Below are positions 8,578 through 21,385 of a DNA stretch of 52,574 bases, piece after piece (the stretch's first letter is position 1; each line of letters opens with the position of its first letter). A program made the position numbers and the translations under genes. This DNA is from Oscillospiraceae bacterium (lineage in GTDB: Bacteria; Bacillota; Clostridia; Oscillospirales; Oscillospiraceae). The notes under the pieces were generated by a model. It was not told where the DNA came from. It saw nothing but the letters and a program-made list of their open reading frames with translations, and did no database searches. The stretch is taken from the NCBI GenBank assembly GCA_022800665.1, contig JAAWQS010000011.1, forward strand, positions 1 through 52,574. The letters run 5' to 3'.

Positions 8578-8625
8578 ATATCCAGATCACTACATCCCAG
8601 AGGTCTTTAAGAAAGGATGATTCAT

Positions 8626-10869
8626 ATGGGAAGAAAACTGCTGGCCGCGCTTATGGCCTTTACCATCCTCTTCTCTCTATGCCCAACGGCTCTGGCGGAC
8701 AGCCAGGAACCCCGCCAGACTGCCTTTTTTACCAGTCAGCCCCATACGGACCTGGACTACAGCGAAATGACCTACAGACGTCCCGATGCAAAAGCTGTGC
8801 TGGCGGAGATGGAGGGGCTGCGCGGTTTGCTGGACGGCGTGGAGAATGCCAAAGCCGTCCAGGAGCTTTTTGGCGTCCTGGTCAACCGCTATATGGAGGC
8901 GCAGACCATGGCCGCGCTGGCGGAGCTGGAGGCGTGCCGCAATGCCGCTGGTTCCCAGGCCGCTCAGGAGCTGGAGGCCGCTTATAACGCCTGCGCCGCC
9001 ATTGCCGATGCCTTACCCCCCTTAATGCGGGATATCCTCAACTCCCCCTGCGGCGATTTCCTGAAGGAACAGTTGGGTGCGCTTACCGCCGCATACTATA
9101 TGCAGTACACAGAGGCCCCCGCCCGGCAGCGGGAGCTGACCAGCCAGGAGACCTCGCTGATGAACGAGTACAGACGGCTCTCTGCCGAACCCTGCGTGGT
9201 GGAGTATTTTGGCCGGGACTGGGATATGCAGGCCTTGAACCAGGCGTTTTATCAGGAGGGTTCCATCAACGCTGACACATATGCCGAAATTTACGGTATG
9301 ATCGCCCAGGAGTTAAACGAAACGCTGGGCAGCCTGTATCTGCGCACCGTGCGGCTGAGAAAAAATATCGCCTCTGCTTACGGCTACAGCGATTATGGCG
9401 AGTTTGCATACCGCCGGCTCTACCGCCGGGACTATTCCCCTGCGGACATCGCCTCCTTCCGGGAGGACGTCAAGACGTATATTGCCCCCCTCAACACGGC
9501 CCTGCACGCCATTCCCCGCCAGAAAAGCGACGTCTTCTACAGCGACTACAGCGGCGAAATAGCGTTGGACCTGATCGCCCCCTATATTGGACAAATGTCC
9601 AGCGAACTGCTGGAGGCTTTCACCTATATGCGGGAACACCACCTCTACGACACCGCGGAGAGCGCGGACAAGACGGATACCGGGTTTACCACCATGCTCT
9701 ACTATTACGGCGCCCCCTTCCTCTTCAACGCGCCCGCCCACGAGCTTTTTGACTTCACCAGTACCGTCCACGAGTTCGGCCACTACAACCACGCCTACTG
9801 GTCCCCCTCCGGCTGGCTGAACGCCGTCAAGAGCCAGGATGTGATGGAGGTCCACTCCCAGGGCCTGGAGCTGCTGCTCTCCCACTACTACCCCGACATT
9901 TTCGGCAAGGACGGGCAGGCGGTTGCAGACTATCAGATTACCAGTCTGGTCGAGGCCATCTGCCAGGGGGCTTACTACGACGAGCTGCAGCAGTATGTCT
10001 ACAGCGCCAAAAATGTGACGTTACAGCAGATTAACGAGAAAGCCCGTCTTCTGAGCATCGACTACGGCTTTGCGGAGGAGGACAGCCCCATGGCCCATGT
10101 CTATGGACTCAGCTGGGTGCAGGTCTCCCACAATTTTACCCAGCCCTTCTATTACATCAGCTACGGCGTTTCCGCCGCCGGCGCCTTTGCGTTCTGGCTG
10201 GAAGCCCAGAAAAACTACTTTAACGCCGTAGACAACTACCTGGCGTACACCGCTTTGGACGCCTCCTATGATTTCCAGGAGAGCTTTGCCGCCACTGGTA
10301 TGACCTCCCCCCTGACAGACGGCTATCTGGAGAAGCTGGCGCAGACGCTGCGGCAGGAGCTGAAAGTGGAGCAGCGTCTGGAGGAGCTGGAAAACGCAAC
10401 TGTATTTACCGACGTATCCGCCGACAGCTGGTATGCCCCCTACGTGCTGGCTCTGGCAGAAATGGGATGCGTGGATGGCGATGAAAACGGAGCCTTCCAT
10501 CCTGGGGACAACGCCGCGTGGGATATGGCGATGGGGGCTTTGCTGGCAATCAACGGCCAGAAGCCGGAGCTGGAGGACAGCCGGACCATTACCCGCCTGG
10601 AGTTCTGCCAGATGATTGTGGAAGTGCTGGGTATCCCTGCCGCGCAAGGATCTTCGCCTTTTACAGATACGGACGACAGCTCCGTGGCCGCTCTGGCGGA
10701 GTTGGGTGTGATCTCCGGATATGACGGCGGAGCTTTCCATCCGGACGGGGAACTGACCCGCGCAGAGCTGTGCGCAGTTCTGTATAAAACCGCTGAAGCT
10801 GTTTCCCTTATCGACCAACCGGAAACGGAAGATACAGAAGAGTTTGAAATGGATGAAAATGCAGCATAA
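8626..10869 (+). CDS. Secreted M3-family zinc oligopeptidase with C-terminal S-layer homology domains
   Basis: The ATG at 8626 is preferred over the in-frame ATG at 8617 because the AAGAAAGG box is only about 2 bases from the latter. The N-terminus is a Sec signal peptide: a basic MGRK, a hydrophobic stretch and a likely cut after ALA. The catalytic site is HEFGH (382-386), with the third zinc ligand at about Glu408 in 'EVHSQGLE', matching the M3B (oligoendopeptidase F) pattern. Two SLH-like modules follow (about 592-630 and 678-725; 'FTDVSADSWYAPYVLALAEMG', 'GVISGYDGGAFHPDGELTRAE'). The protein would be exported and bound to the cell wall, where it cuts peptides. Most M3 peptidases are cytoplasmic, so the address is unusual. 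The tail is acidic. Confidence 0.88.
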   Translation: MGRKLLAALMAFTILFSLCPTALADSQEPRQTAFFTSQPHTDLDYSEMTYRRPDAKAVLAEMEGLRGLLDGVENAKAVQELFGVLVNRYMEAQTMAALAELEACRNAAGSQAAQELEAAYNACAAIADALPPLMRDILNSPCGDFLKEQLGALTAAYYMQYTEAPARQRELTSQETSLMNEYRRLSAEPCVVEYFGRDWDMQALNQAFYQEGSINADTYAEIYGMIAQELNETLGSLYLRTVRLRKNIASAYGYSDYGEFAYRRLYRRDYSPADIASFREDVKTYIAPLNTALHAIPRQKSDVFYSDYSGEIALDLIAPYIGQMSSELLEAFTYMREHHLYDTAESADKTDTGFTTMLYYYGAPFLFNAPAHELFDFTSTVHEFGHYNHAYWSPSGWLNAVKSQDVMEVHSQGLELLLSHYYPDIFGKDGQAVADYQITSLVEAICQGAYYDELQQYVYSAKNVTLQQINEKARLLSIDYGFAEEDSPMAHVYGLSWVQVSHNFTQPFYYISYGVSAAGAFAFWLEAQKNYFNAVDNYLAYTALDASYDFQESFAATGMTSPLTDGYLEKLAQTLRQELKVEQRLEELENATVFTDVSADSWYAPYVLALAEMGCVDGDENGAFHPGDNAAWDMAMGALLAINGQKPELEDSRTITRLEFCQMIVEVLGIPAAQGSSPFTDTDDSSVAALAELGVISGYDGGAFHPDGELTRAELCAVLYKTAEAVSLIDQPETEDTEEFEMDENAA

Positions 10870-14351: not shown

Positions 14352-15830
14352 TCACAGTATAATACAGATCAGACCGCCGCTCCCCTCGTTTACAATCCGC
14401 TGCAGGGTCTCCTGGAACTTCAGCCGCGCGTCCATCGGCATACGGTAGAGTTTCGCCTGCAAGTCCTCATTGACCAGCTCGTGGAAGCTGCGGCCAAAAA
14501 TATTGGACTCCCAGATCTGCGTGGGGTCGCCGCTGAATTTGTCCATCAAATAGTTGACCATATCCTCGCTCTGCTTCTCATTGCCGACAATGGGCGATAC
14601 GGTTGACTCGATGTCCACCTTGAACATATGGATAGACGGCGCGCTGGCCTTCAGTTTAATGCCGTAGCGTCCGCCCTGGCGCATGACCTCCGGCTCCTCC
14701 AGCAGCAGCTCCTCCATGGTGGGCATGACGATGCCGTAACCTGTTTCATAGACATTGTTCAGCGCGTCCGACACCTTATCAAACCTGGCCTTGATGCCCG
14801 CCAGCTCAGTCAGCAGCTCCATGAGGTCGCCGTCGTCGGAGACTGTAAAACCGGACTGACTGCTGAGCGTCTGATAGAACAGTTCCCGCGGCAGCTGCAA
14901 TTCCGCCGCCGCGATGCCCCGGCCCAGGTCGATGGAGAGCACGCGGCTGAGGGAGATATTCTCCTGCTCCCCCATCTCCTTCACCACCGGCTCCACTTCC
15001 CGGATATGGCTCATCCGGTCCCCTCCCTCACGGATGACGCCGTAAACGGCCTGCTTGATGGGATGGCTCATAGGCAGGGCGTCGATCCAGGCGGGCAGGA
15101 AAATCCGCATTTCCCGCAGGGGGAATTCAAAGAGGATGCTTTTAATAATGTATGTAATGGCCTCCTCGTTCAGCTCCAGGCAGTTGACAGGCAGGCACTG
15201 CACGCCGAAGCGGTTCCCGATCTCCCGGCTGATGCTGACGGCTCTGCCGCTGTGGGGTTCGGTGGTGTTGAGCAGCACAACGAAGGGTTTGCCCAGCTCC
15301 TGGAGCTCGGTGATGACCCGCTCCTCCGCATCCAGGTAGTCCTCGCGGGGGATGTCGGTAATGGAGCCGTCGGTGGTGATGACGATGCCTACGGTGGAGT
15401 GCTCCTGTATGACCTTCCGCGTCCCGATTTCCGCGGCCTCCGCCATAGGGATTTCGTGGTCCATCCAAGGGGTCATGACCATCCGCGGCTCCCCGTCCTC
15501 AAACTGGCCCATCGCGCCCTTAACCATATATCCCACGCTGTCAATAAGCCGCACCGCAAAGGTCATGCCGCCGTCCAGGGTCAGGTCCACAGCCTCCTCC
15601 GGGACAAACTTCGGCTCTGCGGTCATGATGGTGCGTCCGCTTCCCGACTGGGGCAGCTCGTCGATGGCGCGTTCCCTGCGGTAGACATTGTCAATGTTGG
15701 GAATCACGCAGGTCTCCATAAAGCGTTTGATGAAGGTGGACTTCCCTGTCCGCACCGGCCCCAGCACGCCTACGAACAGGGACCCGCCGGTCCGGGCCGC
15801 AATATCCTGGTAGAGATCGGTATTTGTCAT
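14352..15830 (-). CDS. spoIVA: Stage IV sporulation protein A, spore-coat basement ATPase
   Basis: SpoIVA coats the outer forespore membrane as an ATP-hydrolysing, self-polymerising sheet on which the coat and cortex are built. It is made in the mother cell. The 492-residue length and N-terminus are typical: 'GVLGPVRTGKST' has the Walker A at 24-32, and an essential internal 'RTIMTAEPKFVPEEAV' follows. The C-terminus 'EGSGGLICIIL' has the hydrophobic ending that docks on SpoVM. The ATG at 15830 follows GGGAGG. Its two known partners, SpoVM and SipL, are encoded within 5 kb. No convincing SigE promoter could be picked out upstream. Confidence 0.97.
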   Translation of the reverse strand: MTNTDLYQDIAARTGGSLFVGVLGPVRTGKSTFIKRFMETCVIPNIDNVYRRERAIDELPQSGSGRTIMTAEPKFVPEEAVDLTLDGGMTFAVRLIDSVGYMVKGAMGQFEDGEPRMVMTPWMDHEIPMAEAAEIGTRKVIQEHSTVGIVITTDGSITDIPREDYLDAEERVITELQELGKPFVVLLNTTEPHSGRAVSISREIGNRFGVQCLPVNCLELNEEAITYIIKSILFEFPLREMRIFLPAWIDALPMSHPIKQAVYGVIREGGDRMSHIREVEPVVKEMGEQENISLSRVLSIDLGRGIAAAELQLPRELFYQTLSSQSGFTVSDDGDLMELLTELAGIKARFDKVSDALNNVYETGYGIVMPTMEELLLEEPEVMRQGGRYGIKLKASAPSIHMFKVDIESTVSPIVGNEKQSEDMVNYLMDKFSGDPTQIWESNIFGRSFHELVNEDLQAKLYRMPMDARLKFQETLQRIVNEGSGGLICIIL

Positions 15831-16054
15831 AGTAACCTCCCATACGCATTTCGCGCGTAAATTGAATGTAATGCATGTATCCCCGGCAGCCGGGCGATCG
15901 TTTTAGATTTCCTGCGGCGGTAGGCAGCGCTGTAAGCCGTACGTCTGAGACTAATCTATGAATACCGGGACAAAATTATGCCTTTCCGCCCCGCATTGGA
16001 TAAACTACACAAAGGAGCGCGGAACCTGCCGCCGCTTCTTGGAAAAAATGGTTC
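15831..16054. other. Intergenic region between divergent spoIVA and the amino-acid importer
   Basis: No gene is visible on either strand. It contains a short CCCGG-CAG-CCGGG hairpin (about 15887-15899) and must hold the mother-cell promoter of spoIVA. I could not assign -35 and -10 boxes with confidence. Confidence 0.5.
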
Positions 16055-16083
16055 TTTACAAAAACGCTTTAGTGTGATAAATT
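16055..16083 (+). promoter_or_regulatory. Likely promoter of the amino-acid ABC importer
   Basis: TTTACA (16055-16060), a 17-base spacer and TAAATT (16078-16083), about 46 bases before the first start codon. Confidence 0.6.
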
Positions 16084-16128
16084 GTTAGCGTATTAAACTG
16101 GCGTATGTGCCAAGGAGGATCTTTCAGG

Positions 16129-16938
16129 ATGAAAATGAATAAGTTTCTTACATTTGTATTAGCGATGGCTATGGCGCTGGCCCTGGCCGCCTGCGGCAGC
16201 AATGCCGGGAACAAGGATGCCGGCGGTACAGAGAGCGACACCGCGTATGTGAAGGAAAAAGGGACCTTGGTGGTCGGCATCACCGATTTCGCGCCCATGG
16301 ACTACAAAGACAACAACGGCGAGTGGATCGGCTTTGACGCAGACATGGCAAAAGCCTTTGCCGAGAGCTTGGGCGTAAAAGTGGAGTTCCTTGAGATTAC
16401 CTGGGACAACAAGGTCATGGAACTGGACACCAAGGGCATTGACGCGGTTTGGAACGGCATGACGCTCACCCAGGACGTTAAGACCCTGATGGAGACCAGC
16501 GAGCCCTATTGCAAAAACGCTCAGGTCGTGGTCATCAGTGAGGACAGAGCCGCCAACTACCAGACGGAGGACAGCATCAGCGAGTTGAACTTTGCCGTGG
16601 AAAACGGTTCCGCCGGTGCAGAGGCCCTGGACGCGCTGAACATCAGATACACCGCGGTGGACACCCAGGCCAAAGCCCTGATGGAAGTAGCCGCCGGCAG
16701 CAACGAAGCCTGTGTGATCGACCTGCTGATGGCGGGCGCAATGATCGGCGAGGGTACCAGCTATCCCAACCTGACGACCGCCGTAGAGCTGAACAGCGAG
16801 GAGTACGGCGTGGGTTTCCGCAAGGGCAGCGATTTGGCGGATGCTTTCAACAGCTTCTGGAAGTCCGCCTATGAAGATGGTACGGTTGTAGAGATCGCCT
16901 CCACTTACGGCGTTGCGCAGAACATCATCGAGAAGTAA
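16129..16938 (+). CDS. Polar amino-acid ABC transporter, substrate-binding lipoprotein
   Basis: This is the extracytoplasmic receptor of the importer encoded by the next two genes. The ATG at 16129 (269 residues) was chosen for the CAAGGAGGAT box at 16111-16120; an earlier in-frame ATG lacks one. A lipoprotein signal ends in LALAAC with lipidated Cys22. The mature part is an SBP_bac_3 fold starting 'GTLVVGITDFAPMDYKDNNGEWIGFDADMAKAF'. The ligand class (cystine, His, Arg or Gln/Glu) cannot be settled from sequence. A hairpin after the stop may raise the level of this subunit over the others. Confidence 0.92.
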   Translation: MKMNKFLTFVLAMAMALALAACGSNAGNKDAGGTESDTAYVKEKGTLVVGITDFAPMDYKDNNGEWIGFDADMAKAFAESLGVKVEFLEITWDNKVMELDTKGIDAVWNGMTLTQDVKTLMETSEPYCKNAQVVVISEDRAANYQTEDSISELNFAVENGSAGAEALDALNIRYTAVDTQAKALMEVAAGSNEACVIDLLMAGAMIGEGTSYPNLTTAVELNSEEYGVGFRKGSDLADAFNSFWKSAYEDGTVVEIASTYGVAQNIIEK

Positions 16939-16953
16939 GGAAAGAACATACTG

Positions 16954-16987
16954 GGAAGGCAGAGCGGCTATCCCCCCTCTGCCTTCC
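16954..16987 (+). terminator. Intercistronic stem-loop between binding protein and permease
   Basis: An 11-bp perfect stem, GGAAGGCAGAG (16954-16964) with CTCTGCCTTCC (16977-16987), has no T run after it. It is more likely an mRNA-stabilising or partial-termination element than a full terminator. Confidence 0.6.
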
Positions 16988-17012
16988 TGACCGTCTACAG
17001 GAGAGAAAAACG

Positions 17013-17693
17013 ATGGACTCATTTCTGGAAGTTACCCTAACCTTGTCAGAGGGACTGATTACCACCTCCAAGATGACTGTGCTGACCCTTTTATTTGCCC
17101 TTCCGCTGGGTCTTGTCATCTGCTTCGGCTCCATGAACCGCGTTTCTCCGCTGCGCTGGTTTGTCAAAACCGTCGTATGGATTGTGCGCGGTTCCCCGCT
17201 GATGCTGCAAATTCTGATTGTGTACTACGGCCCCGGCCTGTTCAACAATTTCCTCGATCAGAATTTCCCCGCCTTCCCTCTCCGCTTCGCCCTCCTCCCC
17301 CGATTCACAGCAGCCGTAGTGACGTTCGTCATCAATTACGCCTGCTACTTCTCCGAAATATACCGCGGCGGCATCCAGTCCATCCCCCGCGGGCAGTACG
17401 AGGCCGGTCAGGTTCTGGGCATGACCCGCAGTCAAATTTTCTTTAAGGTCACGCTGCTCCAGCTCATCAAGCGCATTGTGCCGCCGATGGGCAACGAGTT
17501 TATCACGCTGGTCAAGGACACTGCGCTGATCCGCGTCATCTGTGTCTATGAAATCATCTGGATGGGCGAATCCTACACCAAAAAGGGCATGATCTGGCCG
17601 CTGTTCTATACTGCCGTATTTTATCTGGCTGTGAGCGGCCTGCTGACCTTGCTGCTGAATTGGTTTGAGAAGAAACTGTCCTATTTCAAGTGA
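17013..17693 (+). CDS. Polar amino-acid ABC transporter, permease
   Basis: The 226-residue HisM/GlnP-type inner-membrane subunit has the N-terminal hallmark 'VRGSPLMLQILIVYYG' (about 54-69) and the EAA loop 'YEAGQVLGMTRSQIFFKVTLLQ' region that docks on the ATPase. Five or so membrane segments are visible. The ATG at 17013 follows AGGAGAGAAAAACG. It most likely works as a homodimer, since only one permease gene is present. Confidence 0.93.
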   Translation: MDSFLEVTLTLSEGLITTSKMTVLTLLFALPLGLVICFGSMNRVSPLRWFVKTVVWIVRGSPLMLQILIVYYGPGLFNNFLDQNFPAFPLRFALLPRFTAAVVTFVINYACYFSEIYRGGIQSIPRGQYEAGQVLGMTRSQIFFKVTLLQLIKRIVPPMGNEFITLVKDTALIRVICVYEIIWMGESYTKKGMIWPLFYTAVFYLAVSGLLTLLLNWFEKKLSYFK

Positions 17694-17708
17694 CAGGAGG
17701 TAAGGGAA

Positions 17709-18494
17709 ATGTCGATTTTAGAGGTCAGAAACATTGAAAAACATTTTGGCGACATTGAAGTCCTCAAGGACATCAGCTTTTCTCTGGAGAAGGGCCAGTC
17801 CCTGGCGATTATCGGCTCCTCCGGCAGCGGCAAGACTACCCTGCTGCGGTGCCTGAACTTCCTGGAACGTCCGGACCGCGGCAGTATCTCCGTCCACGGC
17901 AATGTGATCTTTGACGCCTGCGGCGTTTCTGCCCAGAGCGAGGAGGAGATTCGCCGCAAACGGCTGCATTTCGGTCTGGTATTCCAGAACTTCAACCTCT
18001 TCCCCCAATACACCGCGCTGGAAAATATCATGCTGGCGGGGACGCTGCTGGCAAAAGAGCGGCCTGACTACAAGGCAAAAAAGAAAGAAATCCTGGAGAA
18101 AATCCGGACGCAGGCGGCAGACCTGCTGGCCCAGGTGGGCCTGCAGACACGGATGGACAACTACCCGCACCAGCTCTCCGGCGGACAGCAGCAGCGGGTT
18201 GCCATTGCCCGTGCGCTGGCTCTGCATCCGGACATTCTGTGCTTCGACGAGCCTACCTCCGCCCTGGACCCGGAGCTTACGGGCGAGGTGCTGAAAGTGA
18301 TCCGTTCCCTGGCGGATCGGGATACTACCATGATTATTGTCACCCATGAGATGGATTTTGCCAGAGATGTGGCGGATCAGATTATTTTTATGGATGAGGG
18401 ATTGATCGTAGAACAGGGACCGCCGGAGCAGGTGATCGGGAATCCCCAGGAGGAGCGTACCAGACAATTCCTGAATCATTTCTCCAAAGGCTGA
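17709..18494 (+). CDS. Polar amino-acid ABC transporter, ATP-binding subunit
   Basis: The 261-residue GlnQ/HisP-type ATPase powers the importer. Walker A is GSSGSGKT (36-43), the signature is LSGGQ (156-160), and Walker B is ILCFDEP (176-182), followed by a D-loop SALD and the switch histidine in 'IIVTHEMDFA'. The ATG at 17709 follows AGGAGGTAAGGGAA, 15 bases after the permease stop. Compared with GlnQ there is a short insertion around residues 68-86. Confidence 0.95.
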   Translation: MSILEVRNIEKHFGDIEVLKDISFSLEKGQSLAIIGSSGSGKTTLLRCLNFLERPDRGSISVHGNVIFDACGVSAQSEEEIRRKRLHFGLVFQNFNLFPQYTALENIMLAGTLLAKERPDYKAKKKEILEKIRTQAADLLAQVGLQTRMDNYPHQLSGGQQQRVAIARALALHPDILCFDEPTSALDPELTGEVLKVIRSLADRDTTMIIVTHEMDFARDVADQIIFMDEGLIVEQGPPEQVIGNPQEERTRQFLNHFSKG

Positions 18495-18542
18495 AAAAGT
18501 ACCGCCCAAAAATCACTGAACTCCACAAGGATTATAACGCCA

Positions 18543-18590
18543 AAAACCATCACCACGCATCTTTCTATGCGCGTGGTGATGGTTTTCTCT
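18543..18590. terminator. Bidirectional terminator between the ABC importer and sipL
   Basis: The stem AAAACCATCACCACGC (18543-18558) pairs with GCGTGGTGATGGTTTT (18571-18586). Both exits are T-rich (TTCTCT on plus; TTTTTGG on minus), which suits the two convergent operons. Confidence 0.9.
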
Positions 18591-20121
18591 ATCTGGTTCT
18601 TGGGATCAGCAGCAGCCGGTCATAAGGAATCTGGCTCTCCTCATTCAGCTCATTCACTTCCAAAATACCCTTCCTGGTGGTGCGGTACTGCTTGGCCACA
18701 GACCACAGCGTCTCCTCCGGCGAGAGCTTCCGCAGAATCAGGGACGGCATAACCTCTTTATTCTGCTCCTCCTCGTCCGTCTCTCCCCCGCTGACGCAGA
18801 GATACCGCCGCCGGTTGGACGCGGACAGGGTGCAGTCCAGCGGGAAGCGCAGTTCAATGCCCTCCGGCATGATATTGGTAATCACATCGCCGTGACAAGC
18901 GGCCTCCCCCTGACAGCCCGCCAGCTCCCCCGGCATCTCGGCGGGACAGCTGACGGTAAACTCCCGGCGCACGCTGCCCAGCACGTCGTTTTCGTCCAGA
19001 TACAGGCATCTGGCCCAGGCGGAGATTTTCACCTCGCTGCCCGCCGGCTGCACCGCGCCGCAGCCGATCTCCGTGTCCAGCACCGATTTCACCGGCACGC
19101 CTGTCTCCAGCAGCTCCCGGACGTTCTGCCGCCGTGTGCTCTTCTGGGCGTCCTCGTTCAGCTCCAGCTCCATCATCTGGCAGGACACCGGCGCGGCTGT
19201 GCTGTAGAGGTCCGCGATAAAGGCGACCTCCTCTCCCCGCCACACCGTCACGCGGGCCTTTACCAGCAGCGACATCGTCACCACATAGGCGTCGTCCGGC
19301 GCACCCTCGCTGCCGGCACGGCATTCCGCGCTCAGAAGATGGTACGCCGCGTCGCTCTCGCAGTCCTCGTCAAATCCGTTTCCCTCCAGAATCTGTGAAA
19401 AGGGCAAGTCCTGCTGCAGCAGGGCCAGACGCCCGCCGTTCTCCCGGTACAGGATAGCGGCGGAAATCAGTCCCTTCACCACCAGCTTGCTGCCGATGAG
19501 CTTGCTGTCCGTCCCCCGGATGTCCAGCCGGGTGGAGAGAATTTCCTCCGCGCCGCCCCGGCCTGGGGACAGGGGCAGTTCCTCTGTAAAGGTAAACTCC
19601 TTCTCGCGCACGCCTGCCACCACGCGGCTCTCCCGCTTTTCACGCAGCAGCTGGACGTTCTCTCCGCCGTCCTCCGCCATCTCCGTACATACGGAGACCG
19701 TGGCGTGGCGGCAGCCGCTGGGATACAGTGTCAGGCTGGCTCTGGTGAGGACTTTTCTGGGGTTCAGCACGCGGGTATCAATGCTGTGCAGCTCCCCCCG
19801 GATGTCCAGAAACTCGCAGTCCGCCGGTCCCTGTCCCTCTCCGTAGCACTGGAAGGGGATCTGGAAGTGGAGGGCGCGGACGCCGTCCTCCTTCTCCGGT
19901 ATGTACAGAACCGACGCATCCACCGAGCCGCTGGCGCAGAACCGGCCATCTCCGGTCAGCTCGCAGCTGGTCAGACAGACCAGTCCTGTGGTGTCTACAA
20001 TCCGCGCAATATCTCCGCAGCTGTCCGGCACGATGTTCTCCCGCATGGTCTCGCAGGAGAAGGGGGCGAACTGGAGCGGTTCATAGTAATCGTGGCTGAC
20101 TTTTTTGAAATTCAATTCCAT
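18589..20121 (-). CDS. sipL: SpoIVA-interacting coat protein SipL (DUF3794/SPOCS repeats plus LysM)
   Basis: The 510-residue product has several DUF3794 (SPOCS) modules over most of its length and a C-terminal LysM module (about 466-510, 'LSPEETLWSVAKQYRTTRKG...LLLIPR'). This architecture is that of C. difficile SipL, the functional counterpart of Bacillus SpoVID, whose LysM domain binds SpoIVA and holds the coat on the forespore. The ATG at 20121 is used because GGGAGG abuts the in-frame ATG at 20130 with no spacing but is 9 bases from 20121. It follows spoVM by 51 bases on the same strand, and spoIVA lies 2.8 kb away. The role is inferred from architecture and neighbours. Confidence 0.82.
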   Translation of the reverse strand: MELNFKKVSHDYYEPLQFAPFSCETMRENIVPDSCGDIARIVDTTGLVCLTSCELTGDGRFCASGSVDASVLYIPEKEDGVRALHFQIPFQCYGEGQGPADCEFLDIRGELHSIDTRVLNPRKVLTRASLTLYPSGCRHATVSVCTEMAEDGGENVQLLREKRESRVVAGVREKEFTFTEELPLSPGRGGAEEILSTRLDIRGTDSKLIGSKLVVKGLISAAILYRENGGRLALLQQDLPFSQILEGNGFDEDCESDAAYHLLSAECRAGSEGAPDDAYVVTMSLLVKARVTVWRGEEVAFIADLYSTAAPVSCQMMELELNEDAQKSTRRQNVRELLETGVPVKSVLDTEIGCGAVQPAGSEVKISAWARCLYLDENDVLGSVRREFTVSCPAEMPGELAGCQGEAACHGDVITNIMPEGIELRFPLDCTLSASNRRRYLCVSGGETDEEEQNKEVMPSLILRKLSPEETLWSVAKQYRTTRKGILEVNELNEESQIPYDRLLLIPRTR

Positions 20122-20172
20122 TGTTGGCATCCTCCCTTTGCGGCATATCCTGCTTCCAGTGTATGAGGAGCG

Positions 20173-20247
20173 TCAATCCTTCATGCCAAAGAGTTTTCGC
20201 AGAATGCCGTTCAAAAATTTGGGAGACTTGACGACAACGATCTTCAT
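20173..20247 (-). CDS. spoVM: Stage V sporulation protein M (SpoVM), 24 residues
   Basis: A 24-codon frame starts MKIVVVKSPKF and ends in LRKLFGMKD. It matches the SpoVM pattern of MK + four residues + K.PKF, then an amphipathic helix with basic residues. Pro9 is in the same position as the functionally critical Pro9 of Bacillus SpoVM. The ribosome site is excellent (AAGGAGGTCCGCT before ATG 20247). SpoVM senses the convex forespore membrane and anchors SpoIVA. In Bacillus spoVM also lies a little downstream of rsgA, and here it follows the rsgA terminator. It is below the size cut-off of most gene finders. Confidence 0.88.
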   Translation of the reverse strand: MKIVVVKSPKFLNGILRKLFGMKD

Positions 20248-20261
20248 AGCGGACCTCCTTC

Positions 20262-20402
20262 CTACTTACGCATACAGGCGCAGCCGCAGCCTATCAGCAC
20301 AAACGCCACAAGGAACAGAAGGCATCCGGCGGGAAAAATCGCCGCAATGAGAATTCCCAAGCCCAAAGCCGCCGCAAACGCGCCGAGCCACCGGCATCCC
20401 AT
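20262..20402 (-). CDS. 46-residue cysteine-rich membrane peptide upstream of spoVM
   Basis: A small frame with a clear ribosome site (AAGGAGGCGATAGGTC before ATG 20402) ends 14 bases before the spoVM start, so the two are almost certainly one transcript. The product begins MGCRWLG, is nearly all hydrophobic (one or two membrane helices from about residue 5 to 38), and ends with a cluster CGCACMRK. It contains five cysteines (3, 27, 39, 41, 43). I know no family for it. The position suggests a mother-cell sporulation membrane peptide. Codon use resembles its neighbours. Confidence 0.7.
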   Translation of the reverse strand: MGCRWLGAFAAALGLGILIAAIFPAGCLLFLVAFVLIGCGCACMRK

Positions 20403-20470
20403 GACCTATCGCCTCCTTGCTTCCTTTGACTAGTACCATTATATACGCCTGCGCTCCATGTGTGCCGCAA

Positions 20471-20506: not shown

Positions 20507-21385
20507 CTATTTATCCCATGCCTTTATGTTCTTCAGCTCATCGTACAGCCTGCTATAATTTCTGTGGCGGCGCCGGGGGATTTCGCCCGCCTTCACCGCC
20601 GCCAGGACAGCGCATCCCTTCTCCTTGGTGTGACTGCAATTGATAAACCGGCACTGGCCCAGATAGGGACGGAACTCCGCAAATGTCTCCGGAAGCCGCT
20701 CCTTCAGCTCCAAATCCAGCTCCGCCGCGTCGAAGGAGCTGAACCCCGGCGTGTCGATGACCTCCGCGCCGCAGGAGAGCCGGAACAGCTCCACATGGCG
20801 GGTGGTGTGCCGTCCCCGGCCCAGCTTCTCGCTGACCGCGGCCACCTTGAGGGAAAAGCCCGGCTCAATGGCGTTGAGCAGGCTGGACTTCCCCACCCCG
20901 GAATTGCCTGTAAAGGCGGAGAGTTTGCCGGAAATCAGCTCCGCCAGCCGGTCCAGCCCCGCTCCGGTGGCTGCGCTGGTGCGAACGGTGGGGAACCCGG
21001 CGGACCGGTAGATTTCCTCCAGCTCCTCCCCCGCCGCCAGATCCGTTTTGTTCACGCACACCACCACGCCGCAGCCCCTCAGAGCCGCGATAGCGGCCAC
21101 CCGGTCAATGAGGAAGGGGTCTGTCACCGGAATGGCGGCGGAGGCCACCACCACCAGCTGGTCCACGTTGGCCACCGCCGGGCGGTCAAATGCGCTGCTC
21201 CGGGGCTCGATCTCCCAGACCATCCCCCGGCCCGGCTCAGTCTCCCGGACCTCCACCCAGTCGCCCACCAGAGGGTTCCGCCCGTCCTGACGGAATTTCC
21301 CTCTGGCCCGGCACTCCAGGACCGTCTGGCCGGTATCCACGTAGTAAAAGCCGCTGAGGGCCTTTCTGATTCTTCCCCTACTCAC
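20507..21385 (-). CDS. rsgA: Ribosome small-subunit biogenesis GTPase RsgA
   Basis: RsgA is a circularly permuted GTPase that checks late 30S maturation. An N-terminal OB fold is followed by G4 NKTDL (112-116), then G1 GNSGVGKS (160-167) and G3 DTPG (211-214). The C-terminal zinc site is formed by Cys245, Cys250, His252 and Cys258. The order G4-G1-G3 is diagnostic. The start at 21385 overlaps the prkC stop by 8 bases, so translation is coupled. The gene closes the long minus-strand cluster. Confidence 0.96.
   Translation of the reverse strand: MSRGRIRKALSGFYYVDTGQTVLECRARGKFRQDGRNPLVGDWVEVRETEPGRGMVWEIEPRSSAFDRPAVANVDQLVVVASAAIPVTDPFLIDRVAAIAALRGCGVVVCVNKTDLAAGEELEEIYRSAGFPTVRTSAATGAGLDRLAELISGKLSAFTGNSGVGKSSLLNAIEPGFSLKVAAVSEKLGRGRHTTRHVELFRLSCGAEVIDTPGFSSFDAAELDLELKERLPETFAEFRPYLGQCRFINCSHTKEKGCAVLAAVKAGEIPRRRHRNYSRLYDELKNIKAWDK

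Follow-up and report, generated by a model that had tools for sequence, protein, structure and literature searches.

A probable spore-coat basement-layer gene cluster in an Oscillospiraceae bacterium and a small hairpin gene linked to spoVM

The stretch of DNA analysed here (the window) comprises 52,574 nucleotides of an Oscillospiraceae bacterium (GenBank assembly GCA_022800665.1, contig JAAWQS010000011.1), and genuine spoVM, sipL and spoIVA genes lie within 6 kb of it (Table 1). In this locus a clostridial spore-former very probably keeps its genes for the basement layer of the spore coat, joined by a fourth small gene, called the hairpin gene below, which stands directly 5′ of spoVM and is predicted to encode a two-helix membrane protein. 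A preliminary description, made from the sequence alone, had named the trio, and family models identify all three members; its gene list was incomplete, the 46-codon hairpin gene having been overlooked.

According to work on B. subtilis and C. difficile, the SpoVM helix is embedded in the outer membrane of the forespore, SpoIVA is a self-polymerising ATPase, and the LysM domain of SipL binds SpoIVA. Binding of SpoVM to SpoIVA takes place at the forespore membrane, and SipL is a further partner of SpoIVA (PMC6436350). The window resembles the SpoVM-SpoIVA-SpoVID layer of B. subtilis in having the SpoVM and SpoIVA families, and differs from it in that SipL, which is termed clostridial, replaces SpoVID (PMC6436350, PMC5607322), in that the genes are clustered, and in the hairpin gene 5′ of spoVM. 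Most of what is known about clostridial coat assembly comes from C. difficile, a species that, for reasons not understood, can nearly do without SpoVM.

Identity of spoVM, sipL and spoIVA

Read on the minus strand, positions 20173-20247 translate as MKIVVVKSPKFLNGILRKLFGMKD, preceded by the ribosome site AAGGAGG. The NCBIfam model NF033436 (SpoVM_broad) matches this frame with 40 bits against a cut-off of 31 (expectation value, E, 2.8e-10), and Pfam gave no match. Pro at position 9 (MKIVVVKSPKF), which PMC5607322 describes as the only fully conserved SpoVM residue, is present. Thus, the earlier call of this frame as SpoVM holds on the curated model, Pro9 and a GGAGG-type ribosome site. Its 24 codons, singled out in the preliminary description, are an ordinary length: 18 of 19 sequences of the order have 22-28 codons, and the nineteenth (G026, trimmed to 23 residues in sequence set A2) has 38.

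Among 24 same-genus relatives, 20 carry a match to the SpoVM model, each a 24-codon frame; the four without one (G005, G021, G022 and G023) are genomes of 67-76% completeness in which sipL was not found either. Across all 24 codons of 21 distinct genus sequences, the pooled ratio of non-synonymous to synonymous differences (pN/pS) is 0.24, and pN is below pS in 210 of 210 pairs, which are not independent because the sequences are related. Third codon positions vary in 23 of the 24 codons, first positions in 13 and second positions in 7; one alternative frame is broken by stops in all 21 sequences and the other in 7. The relatives' spoVM is therefore under purifying selection, with no frameshifts. 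Frameshifts or non-synonymous drift in relatives, and a clear SpoVM elsewhere in the genome, had been named in the preliminary description as signs that would speak against the gene; the frame is kept throughout, and a model search at E ≤ 10 returned the window spoVM as the sole SpoVM match in its own genome.

Position 9 differs in some other families. Pro9 is absent from the SpoVM frames of four of the five genomes examined in f23 (f23, f38, f42 and f58 being family labels of the class search set described below): Ser takes its place in three of them and Lys in G251 (G058, G298, G234 and G251; loci L057, L079, L126 and L190), and it is kept in G217. Ten SpoVM frames from ten genomes, with inferred start codons, have Pro at position 8 and not 9 (KPSKF, KPGKF and similar; L131, L132, L176, L178, L191, L203, L206, L209, L210 and L213).

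The SipL product matches PF12673 (SPOCS) with an E of 3.2e-20 and carries a LysM domain at its C-terminus. Its start is probably at 20121 (MELNF...), since ATGGAA is aligned there in 21 of 21 genus sequences and the upstream ATG at 20130 is seen in the window alone; with this start, the 51-nt gap first reported between spoVM and sipL stands. SpoIVA matches TIGR02836 over its full length, well above the cut-off of 459.9 bits, with ATPase, middle and C-terminal domains present. Basement-layer genes lie far apart in B. subtilis, as the preliminary description had it for Bacillus; for sipL the statement does not apply, the gene being apparently absent there (none of 14 control genomes has a PF12673 match, and B. 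subtilis is one of the 14).

The hairpin gene in the genus and across the class

Placed between rsgA and spoVM, the hairpin gene occurs 5′ of spoVM in all 20 genus relatives, with a gap of 13-18 nt. It is under purifying selection: pN/pS is 0.23, and pN is below pS in all 66 pairs of 12 sequences. A single-sequence AlphaFold2 model of its translation (P0003, which carries one additional leading codon) shows a helical hairpin with helices at 5-21 and 27-44, a mean predicted local distance difference test score of 75 and a predicted template modelling score of 0.46. No curated family in Pfam, NCBIfam or PDB fits the hairpin, isolated weak matches aside, the strongest being NF058603 in 1 of 17 members (E 0.0002).

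Two profiles, both including the window frame as a seed, were searched against 243 genomes of the class. Profile A1, built from 12 sequences that all come from the order of the window, matched 22 genomes, never at more than one place, and 18 of these genomes lie outside that order. In 16 of the 18, spoVM comes next downstream, found by the SpoVM model in the class search for G077, G116, G184 and G275 and separately in twelve others (weakly in G285, E 0.02); in G173 and G130 the hairpin gene lies near rpmB, without spoVM. Profile A3, with 17 sequences including C. difficile, matched 103 genomes. At 60 further A3 loci, none from a seed genome, a SpoVM frame follows within 250 nt in 49, of which 45 have an E ≤ 1e-3 and L176, L177, L178 and L184 are weaker. 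Altogether, spoVM follows the hairpin gene at 86 of 99 class loci (these 49, 21 earlier loci, the window, G058, G048 and 13 more), a total that leaves out G196, G265, G266 and G280, where the match falls inside frames of 184-682 codons. The 99 loci span 31 family labels, and in 29 of these labels spoVM follows the hairpin gene.

Ten of the 13 loci without spoVM belong to family f42. Reading downstream of all 13 turned up no SpoVM-like frame, and none of the 52 genomes of the class set matched by the SpoVM model belongs to f42. Of the 11 spoVM-less loci among the 60 further ones, 10 have rsgA upstream at a distance of no more than 2.3 kb, and at least 8 of the 10 f42 genomes have SpoIVA and SipL matches among the matches listed. 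In the relatives G030 and G035 the hairpin gene directly precedes sipL, with no spoVM between. An independent role for the hairpin gene is suggested by its persistence in f42, where spoVM is missing.

As a control on the same loci, a hydrophobic open reading frame (ORF) of 35-90 codons, with its end anywhere from 70 nt upstream of the start to 12 nt beyond it, was found for 29 of 56 spoVM genes and for 1 of 113 other long ORFs (Fisher p 5e-16). This test counts any hydrophobic ORF, and its 113 long ORFs are mechanical ones, not proven genes; some of the hydrophobic ORFs 5′ of spoVM are other proteins (G212, G155, G280, G223 and G189). Since the hairpin HMM (hidden Markov model) finds nothing at 26 of the 56 loci, and most hairpin positives among the 56 are profile seeds, the class-wide claim rests on the A1 and A3 searches, from which the hairpin gene is seen to be linked to spoVM over much of the class.

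The linkage is of practical use as well, the hairpin gene serving as an anchor for locating spoVM genes. According to Galperin et al. 2012 (PMC3533761), these are often overlooked in annotation, and several clostridia yielded none. At E ≤ 1e-3, SpoVM_broad finds spoVM in 52 of the 243 genomes, in 8 of these above its cut-off; anchoring on the hairpin gene located it in the 63 more that the model had missed (5 of the 63 matches being weak), for 115 genomes in all.

Four C. difficile genomes carry a hairpin-like frame 35 nt 5′ of spoVM, with a possible 50-codon start and a longest start of 73 codons. A 40-sequence hairpin HMM built without the C. difficile frame matches this frame in L157 with an E of 1.6e-10, and the other three loci have a near-identical frame. 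By length, position and profile it fits CD25622. CD25622 is co-transcribed with spoVM in a sigma-E-dependent manner and was called 'unique to the Peptostreptococcaceae' (Ribis et al. 2017, PMC5607322), a limit that is contradicted by the profile matches across the class. The C. difficile locus thus resembles the window in having a hairpin-like frame 5′ of spoVM; unlike in the window, its sipL and spoIVA are unlinked, as CD3567 and CD2629 respectively (PMC6436350, PMC8745062). In the parts available, these two papers hold nothing on the neighbourhood or the hairpin gene, and, apart from the single paper that turned up for CD25622, no title or abstract in the literature searched, whose subscription coverage was partial, treats either. 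The same search returned nothing on spoVM-sipL synteny, which does not establish its absence from print.

Other arrangements were also seen at these loci. A second hairpin match stands beside the first, as if by tandem duplication, in G108, G132, G154, G194 and G211. G212, G155 and G280 (L096, L097 and L111) encode another small membrane protein, about 87 residues long, 86-107 nt 5′ of spoVM. In f58 (L074, L081, L094 and L114), a frame of about 211 codons that by eye resembles thiamine pyrophosphokinase (thiN) lies directly 5′ of spoVM, a position that thiN also takes in Bacillus.

Gene order and promoter-like blocks

In the 20 same-genus relatives that have both genes, spoVM is followed by sipL on the same strand in every case, which settles for the genus the adjacency that the preliminary description had proposed to check. 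The linkage to spoIVA is looser. It lies within 10 kb of sipL in 9 of 24 genus relatives (G001, G004, G009, G010, G011, G013, G016, G018 and G020), with a gap below 250 nt in four (G004, G009, G013 and G016) and on the opposite strand in G011. In G006, G007, G008, G014 and G015 the two genes are on separate contigs, sipL being followed by some 5 kb or more before its contig ends, and the remaining ten relatives could not be judged (gene not found or contig end). The ATP-binding cassette (ABC) importer, which, as had been described, separates sipL from spoIVA in the window, and which is on the strand opposite to both, turns out to be a lineage-specific interruption, since the same importer ATPase follows sipL in G010 and G024. 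The strictly kept unit of the genus is hairpin gene-spoVM-sipL, and spoIVA drifts in and out.

Beyond the genus, six genomes from other genera of the order have contiguous spoVM-sipL-spoIVA on one strand (G029, G033, G048, G058, G088 and G298; in the first three the model had missed spoVM, which was then recognised by reading the sequence). G042 has spoVM in divergent orientation to a sipL-spoIVA pair; sipL and spoIVA are together without spoVM in G037, G039, G043 and G044, and spoVM and sipL without spoIVA in G025, G026, G028, G034 and G049. Outside the order, among the class matches listed with both genes, none of 71 genomes has sipL and spoIVA within 10 kb of each other; spoVM and sipL are that close in 1 of 29, and spoVM and spoIVA in 1 of 35. 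Pairings with the hairpin-spoVM unit also occur: spoIVA is divergent at about 200 bp in five f38 genomes and lies downstream by 2.2 kb in G252 and 3.1 kb in G105, and sipL is divergent at about 270 bp in G276. The runs and pairings show that basement-layer genes are commonly clustered in this order, and that clusters of other forms occur elsewhere.

The hairpin gene, sipL and spoIVA each have a promoter-like block of their own upstream. The block GTATATAAT is found 5′ of the hairpin gene in 19 of 21 genus sequences, and ATATT-N14-CATA(C/G)AGT 5′ of spoIVA in 8 of 10 aligned ones (degenerate in the window, none seen in L037). Likeness to sigma-E promoters is judged here against what we take to be the consensus. 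The assignment of a sigma factor to the GTATATAAT block was dropped, the sigma-E and sigma-A -10 elements being about equally similar to it; the available part of a paper on transcription start sites (PMC7438776) prints no consensus for comparison. Because of the separate blocks, adjacency is not equated with one operon. A single operon for spoVM, sipL and spoIVA is not supported, given these blocks and the importer on the opposite strand; the blocks weakly suggest separate promoters instead.

Table 1. Features of the locus in the window
Feature	Position	Strand	Basis and remarks
spoVM	20173..20247	-	24 codons + stop; NF033436, pN/pS, only match in own genome
hairpin gene	20262..20402	-	46 codons + stop; predicted two-helix membrane protein; ends 14 nt before spoVM
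sipL	18589..20121	-	PF12673 + LysM; conserved start 20121, mechanical ORF start 20130
spoIVA	14352..15830	-	TIGR02836, 675.8 bits
ABC importer	16105..18494	+	binding protein 16105-16938 (or from 16132), permease 17013-17693, ATPase 17709-18494; named by reading translations in the ORF list, no family search behind the names
rsgA, upstream neighbour	20507..21385	-	PF03193 and TIGR00157
promoter-like block 5′ of hairpin gene	20436..20465	-	GCACAC ... GTATATAATGG; GTATATA aligned in 21/21 genus sequences
-10-like block 5′ of sipL	20158..20165	-	CATACACT; CATA aligned in 21/21 genus sequences
sigma-E-like block 5′ of spoIVA	15953..15980	-	degenerate in the window

Interpretation of the locus

In the explanation that we favour, the mother cell would produce the hairpin protein along with SpoVM; the protein would sit in the same membrane, and may assist or parallel SpoVM in holding the basement layer. 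In this order, sipL and spoIVA would have come to join the rsgA-side locus of spoVM, with the importer later splitting sipL from spoIVA in the lineage of the window. The family models, the purifying selection on spoVM and on the hairpin gene, the gene order in the genus and in the six other genera's genomes, the hairpin-spoVM linkage across the class and the published co-transcription of CD25622 with spoVM favour this account. Several observations weigh against this explanation. Four members of the order (G045, G046, G050 and G055) show no linkage, at least 5 of the 24 genus relatives have lost the one to spoIVA, and the hairpin HMM at E ≤ 1e-3 has no match at 26 of the 56 spoVM loci. In C. 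difficile, moreover, a CD25622 insertion, thought to be polar on spoVM and so presumably to silence it too, resembles the spoVM mutant alone and is no worse (PMC5607322), data that argue for a small role of the hairpin in that species.

The idea that the neighbourhood mirrors the physical complex, put forward in the preliminary description, is upheld in so far as the linkage recurs across genera of the order; the variable spoIVA link and the lack of support for one operon limit it. Passive synteny would dispense with functional coupling altogether, spoVM staying by rsgA and the other two genes having landed close by chance. The many order members and listed class genomes without linkage, the importer that breaks it in the window and the separate promoter-like blocks all suit this reading; we nevertheless think it unlikely, since several families of the order share the linkage and other pairings exist, with spoIVA divergent in the five f38 genomes and sipL in G276. 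As for spoVM itself, its shortness and the missing Pfam match could suggest a chance ORF that is no gene, a proposal with virtually nothing left to it once the frame passes a curated SpoVM model, is kept in 20 relatives and has pN below pS in every pair.

The hairpin frame might likewise be a mere leader, its translation aiding that of spoVM without yielding a working protein. It is very short, it lies close upstream throughout the genus, the spoVM ribosome site adjoins its stop, and the CD25622 insertion has no additive phenotype. A leader is distinctly improbable, however, for a frame with a conserved protein pattern (the pN/pS given above) that is kept in f42, where spoVM is absent, and has tandem second matches in five genomes. 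A bolder form of the protein reading, in which the hairpin, independently of SpoVM, would be a second factor anchoring the clostridial basement layer to the forespore membrane, partnering SpoVM where both are present and replacing it in f42, is a tentative possibility that we consider rather unlikely; the CD25622 insertion, no worse than loss of spoVM alone, speaks against it. If true, it would make the hairpin a candidate for the redundant factor that Ribis et al. proposed as a possible help to SpoIVA, to account for the tolerance of C. difficile to SpoVM loss (PMC5607322).

Whatever its role, a small gene found with spoVM in 29 family labels and outliving it in one is a concrete gene to test, and the spoVM-sipL-spoIVA clusters of the order offer compact loci for rebuilding the basement layer. 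Elsewhere in the window, positions 8617-10869 on the plus strand hold a 750-codon frame that by eye resembles a metallopeptidase of the M3 type ending in surface-layer repeats.

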